Assembly: GCA_027080505.1 (NCBI GenBank)
Contig: JALWRX010000031.1
Span: forward strand, 1-64,000
Direction: 5' to 3'
Length of the DNA stretch: 64,000 nt
Origin: Ghiorsea sp.
Lineage (GTDB): Bacteria; Pseudomonadota; Zetaproteobacteria; Mariprofundales; Mariprofundaceae
In this document: positions 235-7,340 of the stretch, piece after piece
How positions within the stretch are numbered: the stretch's first letter is position 1
How the letters are laid out: the number at the start of each line of letters is the position of its first letter
The notes under the pieces: model-generated
What the model was told of the DNA's origin: nothing
The model's input: only the letters and a program-made list of their open reading frames with translations
Database searches by the model: none
Position numbers and translations under genes: made by a program

Positions 235-1830
235 GTGAGTATGAAAAATTATATCATCATAAGCTTTGTGGCTTGTTGTCTATCGGTTCAGCTGACTTTT
301 GCAGAACCCGTACAAGATATAGGAGCCCTATTAGGTGAAGCTATTGAAGATATTAACTTCCAAGACTTTGATATTGCAGAAAAGAAGCTAACACAAGTAT
401 TAGAAAGTGAACCAGAAAACCCATATGCTAAATATTATATGGCCAGCTTACTTGCGCAAACCAAACGGGCTAAAACAGCAATACCTTATTTAGAAAGCAT
501 TAAAGATTACTCAAACCTATTCCCTGATTATCAACACTTGCTCACATCGACATATATGGCAGCAAATATGCCTGAAAAAGCTATTCCTATTTATAAATCA
601 ATGCTTGAACAAAACCCTTTTGATTTTGAAAACATATTTCAATATGCCATTGCACTAGAGCAAGGTGGTCAATATGACTATGCTATGGTTTACTATCACC
701 AATTAACCCAATCAAACTCACCATATGCTGATGCTGCACACTTTCAACTTGGTAATATGATGATGGCCTTTGGTGCAAACAGGCATGCTAACGCTCAGTT
801 TAACCAAATCGAAACTACTTCCGTATATGCTACAACAGCGAAAGAATATCAAGCTTCTTTAGTGTCTACTTTAAAACCATTCAGTTTATATCTTTCAGCA
901 GAATATTTCATCAATGATAATCCAGGCTCTGCATCATCCACATATGCCAAAGGTGCAGTGCCACAGGCTGCACCCCAAAGCAGTGCTGGACAAACATGGG
1001 TTGCAGCTCTTTCTTCTACCGCATGGGAAGTCAATTACAAGTTACAAACTAAATTTGCATACACCTACTATGCCACGACATACAATGAAAACTTTGCTAA
1101 AAGTAACAATTTCACAGGGCATTTCTTTGCACCAACATTGACCTATACCTTCTCACCTCAATTAAAACTTGAAGGCAAGCTTGATTACCAAATCTTTAAT
1201 CTTGGTGAAGATAATCTATCCAATAACTATGGTGGTAGTTTAAAGCTAAATTATAACGCAAAGGACAATCTATCATCTTTGTATGCCAGCCTCAGTTATA
1301 TGCGAAAGCGATATAACCACGCTTTTGGTGCAGTAGGGTTTGAAGTCGACATGCAATATTTGGATGCCAATTCACCTACCCTTGGTACAGGCGGTTATAT
1401 CATATATTCGGATACTGGCGCAATGCTCAGTATAGACTATAGCCTACTGTTTGAGCGCACCTTAACTAACACTAATGCTGTACTAAATGAAAAGGCACAA
1501 GATAGTGTTTTTAGAGAACATAGCCTATCTTTAAACCACCACCTACCTTTAAGTACTATATATCAAGGGATAAGTTTTGATGTTTCTGCTGGTTATACTT
1601 ATAGAAATTATCTAAACCCTCAATCAGGCACATCGCTACCCAGTATTAAACCAGGTAATTATTTTACCGCCCAAACCACAACGGCAAGCACAAAAATTCA
1701 ATATAATATTAGTACTACATACAACCTTAATGTTGTCCTAGGCTATGATTGGGCAAAAGCTACTTCCCAAGCAACGGAATTAAGCTATACCCAAACACGA
1801 TATTATACGCAACTCTCAGGTTCGTACTAA
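235..1830 (+). CDS. TPR-containing outer-membrane beta-barrel protein
   Basis: A 531-residue exported protein. Residues 1-23 form a signal peptide ending LTFA-EP. Residues about 30-200 are TPR-like helical repeats (e.g. NPYAKYYMASLLAQ, PEKAIPIYKSML). From about 215 to the end the sequence alternates aromatic and polar residues in beta-strand fashion and ends in Tyr, as expected for an outer-membrane barrel. TPR followed by a barrel resembles surface-lipoprotein-assembly (Slam/DUF560-like) proteins, but I cannot confirm that family. The start is GTG at 235 or ATG at 241; purine-rich GAGAGGTAGAGG lies just upstream of both. It converges on the HYR gene, and the two stop codons overlap (1827-1830). 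Confidence 0.7.
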   Translation: MSMKNYIIISFVACCLSVQLTFAEPVQDIGALLGEAIEDINFQDFDIAEKKLTQVLESEPENPYAKYYMASLLAQTKRAKTAIPYLESIKDYSNLFPDYQHLLTSTYMAANMPEKAIPIYKSMLEQNPFDFENIFQYAIALEQGGQYDYAMVYYHQLTQSNSPYADAAHFQLGNMMMAFGANRHANAQFNQIETTSVYATTAKEYQASLVSTLKPFSLYLSAEYFINDNPGSASSTYAKGAVPQAAPQSSAGQTWVAALSSTAWEVNYKLQTKFAYTYYATTYNENFAKSNNFTGHFFAPTLTYTFSPQLKLEGKLDYQIFNLGEDNLSNNYGGSLKLNYNAKDNLSSLYASLSYMRKRYNHAFGAVGFEVDMQYLDANSPTLGTGGYIIYSDTGAMLSIDYSLLFERTLTNTNAVLNEKAQDSVFREHSLSLNHHLPLSTIYQGISFDVSAGYTYRNYLNPQSGTSLPSIKPGNYFTAQTTTASTKIQYNISTTYNLNVVLGYDWAKATSQATELSYTQTRYYTQLSGSY

Positions 1831-4800
1831 GTCCGTTCAAACGATTGATATTTTCGGGTTAAGCGTGTTCCCAGTATCAGCATAACTAGACTTAACCAAG
1901 CCCAGCTTACTGAATTGCCTCGGCCTACAAGGCAGTTTGCCGCATCAGGTGTACCACCTGAGCCTGTAATCACTTCAACAGATGCGCTACCAATACTTCG
2001 ATTTCCTCCTACATCATCAGCAAAGAAAGTTACTTTGGTTGTACCAATTGGGAATACAGAAGGTGCATCATTAAACACTGTAACCGATGTGTCCACATTA
2101 TCTGTCGCTGTAGCACCCGCTAAAAATGTTTGAATCAAAGGGTTACTTAGCTCTGTACCTAACGCACTTGTCGCAAGCACCGATATATCATTAGGTACAG
2201 TTAATATTGGTGGTGTATCATCAATCACTGTAATTGAACCTATAGCTGTACCTACATTACCATAGGTATCTGTTGCTGTGAAAGTAATATCAACCTTTGT
2301 ATTCAAGCTGAAATTTGCCGGTGCATTATGGCTCACAGTTCGAGCACCTTCATAGTCATCAAGTGCAACCACAGCATTAATAAATTGCTGTACATAAGGG
2401 TCATTCACAGACAAACCAGAAGCAGTTTCCGCAGACAAAGTCAATGCTGAAGGTATAGGTAAATATACTATGGGTGCTTGTGCATCCCAAACCGTGACTT
2501 TTGCGCTGGCATAGCCGCGATTGCCTTGCGCATCATCTACAAAAAAGGTGACTGTAGTTGTGCCAATAGGGAAAACTTGAGGTGCATCATTATTGGTACT
2601 CACCACAGTTATCGCGCCATCCACATTATCTGTCGCACTAGCACCTGCTAAGAACGCAACAATGGCTGTATTGCTATTGAATACACCTAAACCACTGGTT
2701 GAAGGAATCACAATATCTGCAGGTGGTGTAATCACAGGTGGTGCAAAATCTTTGACAGTGATAGATGCTGAGTTCAATGGGTTGTGACCCACATTACCAT
2801 AAACATCAGTTGCGTAAAAGTCAATGAACACCTGTGTACCAACAGGGAATGTTGCAGGCGCATCATTACTTACGCTTAATGTGCCTGGATCCCAGTTATC
2901 AAACGCGGTCACCAAACCAAGATATTGTTGCACATAAGGGTCAGTGATTGGTACAGGGTTAGCACTGGTTGCCGCAATCTCATAATGCGCGGGTGTAGGC
3001 AACACAATAGTCGGCGCTTGCGCGTCCCAAACTGTAACATTAGCTGTTGCGCTACCCGTATTCGCAGGCATACCCGAGTCAGTTGCAGAAAAAGTGACCG
3101 TTGTTGTTCCAATCGGGAACAGTGCAGGTACATTATTGCTAATGTTGATAGGGTTAATTACACCATCCACATTATCCGTTGCCGTTGCACCAGCTAAAAA
3201 AGCTGCTACCGCAGGATTAGTATTGGTCACGCCCAACACACCTGAAACCGACGCGACGATAATATCCGTAGGTGGTGTAACAACAGGCGGCTGCATATCT
3301 TGTATGGTGATACTCCTTACCACAGGTGTTGCAATTGTATTGCCTGCTTTATCGGAGACAGTAAATGAAACAGGTGTTACAGTATTGGGTGCAAATGTCG
3401 CTGGCGCGTTATTTTGGATATCCAGAATCGTAATATCCCGATTATCTTTAGCATAAAATTGCTGTAACCATGCCTGAATCTTTGGATCGGTAAGCGGTAC
3501 AGGTGTCGAGTTGATGGCTTCTAATGTTAAGTCTACAGGAGCCACAATTTGTGATGGCGGCGTGGTATCACTCAGTTTGGAAATGATAACCGATGTTTTA
3601 CCCACAGCTATAGCACCGCCAACATTGGTTGGCACCACACCATGCAATGCGGGTGTAGATGGCAAGGGAACTTGCTGCCACACAGAAAAGCTAGGTGTAT
3701 TGTTTTCAATAATCATGCCTGCAGGAGAAAACTGATTGGATGTTTGCCCAACAATAAAAATTTCAGACGTTAACCCTGAAGCTGTACCATTAATTGATAA
3801 AAATTGATTGTTCTGCCGAACGGCTAGGGGCAGGATATTACTCCCATCCTTCCAAGTTATGCCATTGTATGAATAGATGACCACACCTTCCACATCACCT
3901 GATGCTAGGGTTTTGGTACCAACAGCAAAGAATATACCTGGACTTAAAAACTTATATTTATCAGTCCAAAACACATCATTAAACCGCAAGGATTCCCCTG
4001 CCGCCAGTGTGATTGGCGAAGTTCTGGCTGTCCATGTTATCCCCGAATCTGCACTGCTATAAACTGTTCCTACCTTTGGTGTTACCGTAGTCCCACCCAC
4101 AGCAACAAAGGTATAAGGCGAAACTGGGCTTGCTGCAACGCCATGCACTGTAGAACCAAATACTGTAACATGCGGTGTCCATGTGCTGCCATTGGTACTG
4201 GTATATGCTGATGTGCCACCCACAGCCACCAGCTTGGCTTGCCCTGCAACTGGGCTATTTGATGCTAAATCAGAAACCGTACCTGATGGTGATGTTGTCG
4301 CGTTAATCCAAGATTTTCCTGTACTGCTCGTTTTTGCCACATTAGAGCCAACCGCGACAAACTTATTGATGCCTTTTACCCATTCAACCGCTGTAAAAGT
4401 CTCTGTCAGCACTGGCGTTGCAGGGCCTTTCGCCCAGGTGGCACCACTATCCAGGCTATAATCAAGCCGACCTTGGCTGCCTGCTGTCACAACCGTATAT
4501 AAATCGTTGACTGCAACGTCATAATACGTGGGCGGATTTGCCTCAACATAATCCCACTCAAACCATAAAAAACCATCATAACTGGCGCGAATGTCACCTT
4601 CGCTTCCCACTGCCAGCATCAAGCTGCCGTTCCATGCGACATCATATAAGCCTGTCCCTGTATTTAAACCATAATTCCAGGTTGCGCCTGCATCTATACT
4701 ATACACCGCCATAGATGTACCACTATAGTCAATACCAACCCCAACCAACAAGCCATTATGCTCATCAATACCTCTGATATCTAATGTCGCACCAGTAATA

Positions 4801-5558
4801 GATCTATCTGTCCAGTTAATGCCATCAGGGCTTGTGATGATAGTACCATTTAAGCCTGCGGCCACAAATTGCTTGTTGGTCGCATCCCATGTAACTGCGT
4901 ATAAAGACGCTGTGGTTGGCGTTACCTTAAATGCCCATGTCGCCCCACCATCCGTACTTGTATAAACATTGCTTGTAGCACCTGAGAATGAGCCTACCAC
5001 CACTACCGTTGAGCCGCTTGTATTTGCAGCCACACCTGCGGCAGAACTAAAAAAAGTACCAACAGGTATCGCCGTATATGTCCAAGTTTGCATATTGGGG
5101 CTAGTTGCCACAAAGGGTTGAAAATTAGATAATTCATATCCTGAAACAACATAGAGACTATTGGTTTTCACCATGCCTGTAGGTACAACAATACTATTGC
5201 CTCTAACAAGTTTATTGCCTGTTGCTACCCAACGATAGCCATTCTTACTTTTTAAAATACGTGCGTATGGGTCGTTAGTGGTACCAATTTGAAAGGCTAA
5301 AAAGTCATTGGTATCACGCATCACACGATATAAAATAGCATCACTATAAGGATCACCCGCAATCATACTTGCGTTAGCTCGAATATTGACACTTGCACCG
5401 CTCCCTCCCACTGCAACACACTCATCCGCGGAACAAGCCACATCGGAAAGCCATGATGCCTGTGGCAAGGGCTGGATATTATACCAAAGCGGTACTGCTG
5501 CGGCATGCTGAGATGACAATAAAAGTAAAAAGATAAAAAAGGTGAAATACTTAAACAT
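1827..5558 (-). CDS. large secreted beta-propeller / HYR-repeat protein with C-terminal sorting-like tail
   Basis: A 1243-residue protein with a signal peptide (1-21, ending AAA-VP). Residues about 25-650 carry many Asp-box/BNR-like motifs (STDGGATW, SPDGINW, SIDAGATW, SLDSGATW), as in sialidase-like or Ycf48-like propellers. Residues about 660-1195 hold six HYR-type immunoglobulin-like repeats with the signatures ATDNVDG and FPIGTTTVTF, alternating between two subtypes. The tail (about 1200-1243) has a Cys (ANCLVG), one hydrophobic helix and a basic end (TRLTRKYQ), which looks like a Cys-containing CTERM sorting signal. Function is probably surface or extracellular adhesion (inference). It lies 18 bases after the FecR-domain gene, so the two are probably co-transcribed. 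Confidence 0.75.
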   Translation of the reverse strand: MFKYFTFFIFLLLLSSQHAAAVPLWYNIQPLPQASWLSDVACSADECVAVGGSGASVNIRANASMIAGDPYSDAILYRVMRDTNDFLAFQIGTTNDPYARILKSKNGYRWVATGNKLVRGNSIVVPTGMVKTNSLYVVSGYELSNFQPFVATSPNMQTWTYTAIPVGTFFSSAAGVAANTSGSTVVVVGSFSGATSNVYTSTDGGATWAFKVTPTTASLYAVTWDATNKQFVAAGLNGTIITSPDGINWTDRSITGATLDIRGIDEHNGLLVGVGIDYSGTSMAVYSIDAGATWNYGLNTGTGLYDVAWNGSLMLAVGSEGDIRASYDGFLWFEWDYVEANPPTYYDVAVNDLYTVVTAGSQGRLDYSLDSGATWAKGPATPVLTETFTAVEWVKGINKFVAVGSNVAKTSSTGKSWINATTSPSGTVSDLASNSPVAGQAKLVAVGGTSAYTSTNGSTWTPHVTVFGSTVHGVAASPVSPYTFVAVGGTTVTPKVGTVYSSADSGITWTARTSPITLAAGESLRFNDVFWTDKYKFLSPGIFFAVGTKTLASGDVEGVVIYSYNGITWKDGSNILPLAVRQNNQFLSINGTASGLTSEIFIVGQTSNQFSPAGMIIENNTPSFSVWQQVPLPSTPALHGVVPTNVGGAIAVGKTSVIISKLSDTTPPSQIVAPVDLTLEAINSTPVPLTDPKIQAWLQQFYAKDNRDITILDIQNNAPATFAPNTVTPVSFTVSDKAGNTIATPVVRSITIQDMQPPVVTPPTDIIVASVSGVLGVTNTNPAVAAFLAGATATDNVDGVINPINISNNVPALFPIGTTTVTFSATDSGMPANTGSATANVTVWDAQAPTIVLPTPAHYEIAATSANPVPITDPYVQQYLGLVTAFDNWDPGTLSVSNDAPATFPVGTQVFIDFYATDVYGNVGHNPLNSASITVKDFAPPVITPPADIVIPSTSGLGVFNSNTAIVAFLAGASATDNVDGAITVVSTNNDAPQVFPIGTTTVTFFVDDAQGNRGYASAKVTVWDAQAPIVYLPIPSALTLSAETASGLSVNDPYVQQFINAVVALDDYEGARTVSHNAPANFSLNTKVDITFTATDTYGNVGTAIGSITVIDDTPPILTVPNDISVLATSALGTELSNPLIQTFLAGATATDNVDTSVTVFNDAPSVFPIGTTKVTFFADDVGGNRSIGSASVEVITGSGGTPDAANCLVGRGNSVSWAWLSLVMLILGTRLTRKYQSFERT

Positions 5559-5576
5559 ATACGACTTTTACCCTGC

Positions 5577-7211
5577 CTAAGGTCTAATACTTGGGCGCAC
5601 TTTAGGCGCTCGCATGGTGGGTGCTTTTACTGTTGGCATAGGTTTCGGAGCTCTAACCGTTGATATATTCATCTGGGTTGTGCGTGCTGGCTTACTAATC
5701 TGAGGAGTCTTTATAGCTGGAGTGACAGGCTTAGGCTTACTAACGTGAAGAGTTGGCGTTGGGTTGCGAACAGATGGTACACCTGTGCCTTTGGGTCGAC
5801 TGATACTTGGTGTACGTGTTGGAGCAACATTAGAACCCTTAGGCTGGCTCATACTCGGTGTACGACTTGTTGGTACACCTGTGCCTTTGGGTTGACTGAT
5901 ACTTGGTGTACGTGTTGGAGCAATAGTAGAACCCTTAGGCTGGCTTATACTCGGTGCACGACTTGTTGGTACACCTGTGCCTTTGGGTTGACTGATACTT
6001 GGTGTACGTGTTGGAGCAACATTAGAGCCCTTAGGCTGGCTCATACTCGGTGCACGACTTGTTGGTACACCTGTGCCTTTGGGTCGACTGATACTTGGTG
6101 TACGTGTTGGAGCAACATTAGAACCCTTAGGCTGGCTCATACTCGGTGCACGACTTGTTGGTACACCTGTGCCTTTGGGTTGACTGATACTTGGTGTACG
6201 TGTTGGAGCAACATTAGAACCCTTAGGCTGGCTCATACTCGGTGTACGACTTGTTGGTACACTTGTGCCTGAGCCTACAGGCGGTTTACCTCCTGAGTTT
6301 TTTAGTTGTCGCACTTTCGTTGTAGCGTTTTCCCGTGTGTTTGGGCTCACTGGTGTTACGGTTTGTGCTCTTGGTAAAGCCTCTGATTTTACTACTGTGC
6401 GTCGTGAAGTAGAATCTCTCCCTTGTTCATCATTACCTTTTATCTGTTGTGGCTGAGGTCTAGAACCTTGACTGGGTTGGCTCGCTTTTAATGGTGTTAC
6501 CATAGTTGGTGTTTGAGGACGTTCACCAACACTTGGTCTCGCCAAACGTTGAATTCCCAGTCTTTTAACATCCTTAGAAGTAATTTTCCGTGTTAAAATC
6601 TTACCACTGGGCGTAAAGTTAGCCAAAATACCTGGTTTAATTAATTTTTGCCCACCTCGTATATTTTTGCCCAAGACTGACCCTTCAAATAACATCATAG
6701 TCACTGGTTTTTTTGGTAATACCAACGATGGTTTTAATTGCAAAGCCTTAGCTTGTGTTAGATTGATTGGTCTTGGTGCTTCAACTGAAAACTCTGTACC
6801 GCGCACACCAATCACCGCAGTTTTGGTTGACACAGAAAAGGATGAGCCTTTTTTCTTCAATTTATTAACCATGAACCTAGCTTTACCCCACAGCATATCA
6901 AAGAAACCTTTAATTAAACTGTCGCCACTCATTTGATATGCTTTTATTTCAATGCGGCTTTTGCTTCCAACATAGACCATAGTATCATCTACCATACGCA
7001 ACTTAACACGACCACGTTTGCCTGTAACAACAACATCCCTAGGAAACACTCTGTCACCTTGGTGTAAGGCAATTGGTTTACCTGCTTTAAGCACCCACGT
7101 ATCTCCAAACTGAAACATAACTCGACCTGCCTGATCATTTGCTTTAGCCTGTGCTGGCAAAGTAGCAAACACCAGCACCAGCAACATTTGAAAAAAATAC
7201 ATGAAACGCAT
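5577..7211 (-). CDS. FecR-domain exported protein with Pro/Ser/Thr-rich tandem repeats
   Basis: A signal peptide (MRFMYFFQMLLVLVFA... to AQAKA) is followed by a FecR domain at about 30-150. Key segments are ALHQGDRVFPRDVV, GSKSRIEI and the family signature STKTAVIGVRGTEFSV. The C-terminal half is low-complexity and basic. It contains five 32-residue repeats, each two related 16-mers (VPTSRTPSMSQPKGSN and VAPTRTPSISQPKGTG), then a KPxP-rich tail. I chose ATG 7211 over GTG 7220 because GGGGTG sits about 6 bases upstream of it. This is not the iron-citrate regulator: no sigma-factor or TonB gene is nearby. FecR domains of this exported kind are common next to surface proteins, and it probably works with the downstream HYR protein. 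Repeats of this type can change copy number. Confidence 0.75.
   Translation of the reverse strand: MRFMYFFQMLLVLVFATLPAQAKANDQAGRVMFQFGDTWVLKAGKPIALHQGDRVFPRDVVVTGKRGRVKLRMVDDTMVYVGSKSRIEIKAYQMSGDSLIKGFFDMLWGKARFMVNKLKKKGSSFSVSTKTAVIGVRGTEFSVEAPRPINLTQAKALQLKPSLVLPKKPVTMMLFEGSVLGKNIRGGQKLIKPGILANFTPSGKILTRKITSKDVKRLGIQRLARPSVGERPQTPTMVTPLKASQPSQGSRPQPQQIKGNDEQGRDSTSRRTVVKSEALPRAQTVTPVSPNTRENATTKVRQLKNSGGKPPVGSGTSVPTSRTPSMSQPKGSNVAPTRTPSISQPKGTGVPTSRAPSMSQPKGSNVAPTRTPSISRPKGTGVPTSRAPSMSQPKGSNVAPTRTPSISQPKGTGVPTSRAPSISQPKGSTIAPTRTPSISQPKGTGVPTSRTPSMSQPKGSNVAPTRTPSISRPKGTGVPSVRNPTPTLHVSKPKPVTPAIKTPQISKPARTTQMNISTVRAPKPMPTVKAPTMRAPKVRPSIRP
5781..6260 (-). repeat. five in-frame 96-bp tandem repeats in the FecR-domain gene
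   Basis: The unit GTTGGTACACCTGTGCC (plus strand) recurs every 96 bases. Five copies fill 480 bases, and each copy contains two diverged 48-base halves. The copies are nearly identical at DNA level (for example GGTCGACTG versus GGTTGACTG variants), which indicates recent expansion or gene conversion. The first and last copies share the Thr/Met and Arg variants, and copy four carries a Ser-Thr-Ile variant. Confidence 0.9.
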
Positions 7212-7340
7212 ATCACACACCCCACAATAAGAGTACCCTTCAACATAGCAGCTATATACTTAATAGTCAAACAAACCTCTTGAGCTATGCAGCATAAAGC
7301 CTATAATATAGAGTCTCGCATTCTCTTGTCTGCTTTGGGT

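Follow-up and report, generated by a model that had tools for sequence, protein, structure and literature searches.

The window, by which we mean the whole 64,000-nucleotide stretch analyzed here, is the beginning of contig C31 of a Ghiorsea-like zetaproteobacterial MAG (2.03 Mb, 88% complete), from a bacterium related to iron oxidizers. Three genes for exported proteins lie together at positions 235 to 7220, as the initial annotation had reported and as ORF calls and Pfam domains confirm. They encode a 531-aa TPR-barrel protein with a signal peptide (235 to 1830, + strand), a 1243-aa propeller-HYR protein with a Sec signal peptide (1827 to 5558, − strand), and a 547-aa FecR-domain protein with a signal peptide (5577 to 7220, − strand; an alternative in-frame ATG at 7211 is the start used in that annotation). 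The barrel and HYR genes are convergent, tail to tail, and their stop codons do overlap as described before, by 4 nt. The FecR and HYR genes, previously placed in one operon, share a strand and are separated by only 18 nt from FecR stop to HYR start, so a single operon is plausible and we treat it as putative. Among named relatives, a Ghiorsea MAG is the closest at this locus, its barrel protein being 81% identical. At the contig edge (3 to 110) is the end of an ORF that resembles what we take to be the C terminus of an IS1595-type transposase.

In the first protein, a Pfam TPR match covers residues ~24 to 212, a domain of acidic composition (11 K+R versus 23 D+E). Residues 213 to 531 (871 to 1827, + strand), which served as the query of family profile A4 in our searches, are predicted to form a C-terminal outer-membrane barrel on the basis of a profile-profile match to SlipAM and an aromatic C-terminal end (...RYYTQLSGSY). 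No Pfam barrel model matched the window barrel at E ≤ 1; PF04575 (SlipAM) did not match the window protein at that threshold and had no match elsewhere in its own genome. The TPR_Slam model PF24575 scored 25.2 bits in the window protein, below its cut-off of 35.2, and was matched by 9 of 15 barrel-family members at E ≤ 1 (best, 2.6e-10). Structure prediction of the barrel, a check proposed by the initial annotation, was run with AlphaFold from a three-row alignment; at a mean pLDDT of 35 the model is of low confidence and gave no usable fold.

The FecR domain occupies residues 62 to 148 (6777 to 7037, − strand) and is well above the Pfam cut-off (PF04773; 9.4e-13, 48.9 bits versus 24). It is followed by a Pro-rich, strongly basic tail of 317 aa with 49 K+R versus 6 D+E (5580 to 6530, − strand), which contains a 96-bp tandem repeat of 5.2 copies with 96% matches (5775 to 6270, − strand). 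Cut in the same way, the tail measures 573 aa in another family genome (G025) versus 320 aa in the window, which indicates that it varies fast. Window-type FecR proteins mostly have long Pro-rich tails, and those of the core pairs are mostly short, with an IxPxFVxP-like motif at or close to the C terminus. An AlphaFold model of the FecR domain, from a one-row alignment, was of low confidence (mean pLDDT, 36). The FecR proteins also resemble LapA-type N-terminal retention modules: 17 of 18 matched NF033682 (best, 1.4e-7; the window protein scored 19.7 bits, the cut-off being 50), and matches to the antifreeze protein structure PDB 5ix9 were found at 4.5e-4. In LapA, the retention module is a periplasmic plug. 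By analogy, it is possible that FecR is a plug holding a surface protein in the barrel, with the difference from the LapA-type module that FecR carries a Sec signal.

The propeller-HYR giant begins with a propeller-like region of weak BNR and Ycf48 matches in Pfam and NCBIfam searches (3465 to 5492, − strand), followed by HYR/Ig-like repeats at residues ~699 to 1196 (1971 to 3464, − strand), where Pfam HYR (PF02494) matched in four stretches at 4.3e-19 (69.1 bits versus a cut-off of 21.7). It ends in a sorting-signal-like tail of a Cys, a hydrophobic segment, and a basic end (1830 to 1946, − strand), recognized by alignment with the tails of three other HYR proteins.

The initial annotation had pictured the three genes as one module. 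Profile A4 found the barrel in 22 of 74 family genomes and in 24 of 398 genomes of the phylum, all of them from this family or a second one of the same order. A FecR gene lies no more than two genes away in 20 of the 22 barrel genomes; none was seen beside the barrel in G069 or in G072, where the barrel is at a contig start. The HYR gene, however, lies between barrel and FecR in only 2 of the 22 (the window's own genome, G000, and a close relative, G025). The three genes are therefore not a fixed trio, and by the refuting condition that came with the trio, a barrel belonging to a fixed operon of its own, the trio is weakened and the pair is strengthened. A second barrel-FecR pair occurs in the window's genome on contig C126 (L084). 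Barrel and FecR co-diverge: mirror trees of 19 pairs correlated with an r of 0.89, a value that none of 2,000 permutations reached and for which shared species history accounts in part, and both trees split alike the two pairs of G000 and the two of G030. Two arrangements deviate from a single pair. In G065, tandem FecR genes adjoin the barrel gene (L066, 1519 to 3892), and in G028 one pair is present on two contigs (L072, 3612 to 6156; L073, 1289 to 3832), where one of the two barrels has a different end and the second copy may be an artifact of assembly.

The HYR gene is a variable addition to this pair, and at other loci the pair has a CHASE2 protein or unrelated large exported proteins beside it. 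Genes for large exported proteins made up 9 of 136 within two positions of the pair versus 1 of 272 farther away (Fisher P = 3e-4), in loci chosen for having the pair and by a crude rule (at least 550 aa, a signal-like start, and no later membrane helix by simple hydrophobicity). The nine include an ORF of L125 (7798 to 9750). The count dropped N-terminally cut ORFs, and giants recognized by eye outside it include those at L119 (6522 to 11030), L122 (6993 to 12166), L125 (3 to 2921), and L130 (6354 to 8837) and the giant of L121/L199. Most Ghiorsea core pairs are without a large exported neighbor. Among the proteins that flank the pair elsewhere are lipoproteins of the DUF11/cadherin/beta-helix type at L122, the Big_6/Big_13 type at L125, the seven-blade propeller type at L119 (where a second lipoprotein, of 1502 aa, is also encoded), the propeller-like type at L120, and the Ig/HYR plus propeller type at L128. 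Two further neighbors are an Invasin_D3 fragment at L130 and, at L193, an Ig/cadherin protein whose propeller-like matches are weak. The lipoprotein labels at L119, L120, L122, and L125 were assigned by eye from the signal sequence. The combination of Ig/HYR and propeller thus recurs in non-orthologous neighbors (L128 and L193).

The barrel family is very probably a remote homolog of SlipAM, the barrel of Slam (DUF560) proteins, as judged by profile-profile alignment. Among SlipAM proteins, 39 matches were listed, 30 loci were examined, and 23 of these entered the profile. Against these 23 barrels, the 15-row barrel family aligned over 265 of 292 columns with a probability of 98.2% (P = 5.7e-14; hhalign E-values each refer to one comparison). 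Adding seven further relatives raised the probability to 99.0%, and five window-type rows alone gave 97.2%. Single window-type barrels scattered widely (24.8% for the window sequence; 54.3, 1.0, 95.6, and 2.9% for others), and because the window sequence alone reached only 24.8%, the homology claim concerns the barrel family. As for controls, the cellulose-export barrel (BCSC_C) scored 0.3 to 2.8% against barrel-family profiles and 28 to 66% against SlipAM subsets, five block-shuffles of SlipAM gave 1 to 19%, and reversed alignments gave 0.6 to 42.5%, the highest being the reversed barrel family against the canonical SlipAM set. A rotated SlipAM alignment still scored 94 to 98% against the barrel family; its colinear remainder still aligns, so rotation is unfit as a negative control.

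Genuine SlipAM proteins occupy the same FecR-adjoining slot at L117 (1.4e-17), L118 (3.5e-16), and L134 (3.3e-5), in genomes that appear to be Mariprofundus-type. Of the 30 SlipAM loci examined, 14 have a FecR gene beside the genuine SlipAM gene, 10 of them by profile and 4 from the window's family, with the FecR domain beyond the short locus. At L118, the FecR protein beside SlipAM carries a C-terminal TbpB_B_D domain above the Pfam cut-off (6.7e-7), and neighbors of SlipAM-FecR in L186 and L187 match the TbpB-type barrel at 8e-4 and 2e-4. This cargo barrel is described as a mark of T11SS clients (PMC8406197).

The barrel protein has several features in common with type 11 outer membrane proteins (Slam, NilB, and HrpB; PF04575), namely, a Sec signal, a periplasmic TPR region, a C-terminal barrel of ~300 residues matched by profile over nearly its full length, and surface or exported neighbors. 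It differs in that it lacks a single-sequence PF04575 match and has FecR as its constant partner, and no C-terminal, 8-stranded cargo barrel of the TbpB type (PF01298 and kin) was found by Pfam in the FecR or HYR protein of the window. Clients of the barrel-FecR pair, if there are any, would be large Ig/HYR/propeller proteins, unlike those of type 11.

Taken together, these comparisons lead us to propose, with a probability of roughly one-half, that barrel and FecR constitute a divergent, FecR-coupled, type-11-like export unit with the giants as variable clients. Of the secretion and anchoring system suggested by the initial annotation, the secretion part would gain from the SlipAM homology and from the excess of giants near the pair, and the fixed trio is lost. 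In such a unit, the barrel protein and FecR would both reach the periplasm through Sec. The barrel would then span the outer membrane, its acidic TPR domain lying in the periplasm, and would move partner proteins to the surface. FecR would be the dedicated partner, either as a client itself or as an adaptor staying at the periplasmic mouth, in which case its basic Pro-rich tail would engage the TPR domain or the pore. The acidic TPR domain and the basic FecR tail would suit one another, and a contact between tail and TPR may exist. Additional clients would vary from locus to locus among the large Ig/HYR/propeller neighbors, the propeller-HYR protein being the one here. We consider it probable that the barrel exports protein, and the chances that it handles FecR directly to be about even; the HYR giant as its cargo is a tentative assignment, less likely than not.

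The main rival, although we lean away from it, is that the HYR protein does not depend on the barrel, being held in the inner membrane by its tail, lipidated and cut by an enzyme, and exported by a type II system, with the barrel handling FecR only. The HYR protein would then resemble MYXO-CTERM and GlyGly-CTERM proteins, and it does share an invariant Cys, a hydrophobic helix, and a basic end with MYXO-CTERM and JDVT-CTERM tails. The same tail plan recurs on HYR proteins elsewhere in its genome (L085, 457 to 2820, − strand; L087, 6067 to 8895, + strand). Cys-tail proteins are described as exported by type II secretion in the myxosortase literature (PMC11980579), and GspD scores over its threshold in 14 of the 16 genomes of the genus, this one among them. 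Anchoring may run via the Cys tail and a type II system and not via the barrel. The likeness has its limits, however, in that the HYR protein tail matched none of the NCBIfam tail models, and neither a CPBP sorting protease (PF02517) nor a rhomboid protease was found in the window's genome, which is 88% complete. In addition, G025 has the HYR gene in the same place, between barrel and FecR, and large exported proteins recur beside barrel-FecR pairs.

Less probable is a role for barrel and FecR as a surface-sensing relay to a CHASE2 cyclase or kinase rather than as a secretion unit. CHASE2 genes are present at 11 of 44 loci examined, with the order FecR-barrel-CHASE2 in L117, L118, and L195, and Pfam scans of three of them showed two complete cyclases and one truncated protein. 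There are precedents as well. A Burkholderia operon (BiofilmReg) combines LysM-FecR with a CHASE2 histidine kinase (PMC5192318), and the NsrA receptor of Sinorhizobium is proposed to signal with CyaK (PMC7529298). The Burkholderia operon has in common with our loci an exported FecR in an envelope gene set and, at some barrel-related loci, CHASE2; it differs from the barrel-FecR pair in its LysM-FecR and CHASE2 histidine kinase, and the terms "outer membrane" and "TPR" are absent from the main text of PMC5192318. Weighing against a relay, no CHASE2 gene was seen in the window or beside any mapped Ghiorsea pair, the Ghiorsea copies lying elsewhere, and the barrel family has a secretion barrel as its profile match and large exported proteins nearby.

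It is similarly improbable that the HYR gene came to lie between barrel and FecR by chance. That it does so in so few barrel genomes would fit such an accident, as would the wide distribution of HYR-rich proteins, which have matches in 44 of 74 family genomes; the excess of large exported neighbors and the repeated Ig/propeller architecture speak against it. A polysaccharide exporter of the PgaA/BcsC kind, which has the same plan of TPR and then barrel, is very improbable given the BCSC_C match of 0.3 to 2.8% and the absence of any noticed synthase among neighboring ORFs, which were read at their ends only.

If the proposed export unit is real, a constant FecR partner and adhesin-like giants would offer testable clients for environmental type 11 branches, and exported FecR proteins could have a role other than as sigma-factor regulators. 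In the 2025 cargo survey PMC12282271, all seven verified type 11 cases come from cluster 1, and FecR, CHASE2, and cadherin do not occur in its main text; a link of DUF560 with FecR was not found in the literature searched. There are hints of an export-family branch with barrel, FecR partner, and giant neighbor that has so far gone unrecognized. A wider version, which we regard as doubtful, is a FecR-coupled T11SS branch across Pseudomonadota in which FecR would gate or ride the barrel, giant adhesins would be the cargo, and CHASE2 would at some loci report the state of the export site. As a separate observation, the start of a DUF4347 and laminin-G protein lies near barrel and CHASE2 genes at L067 (4164 to 5243).
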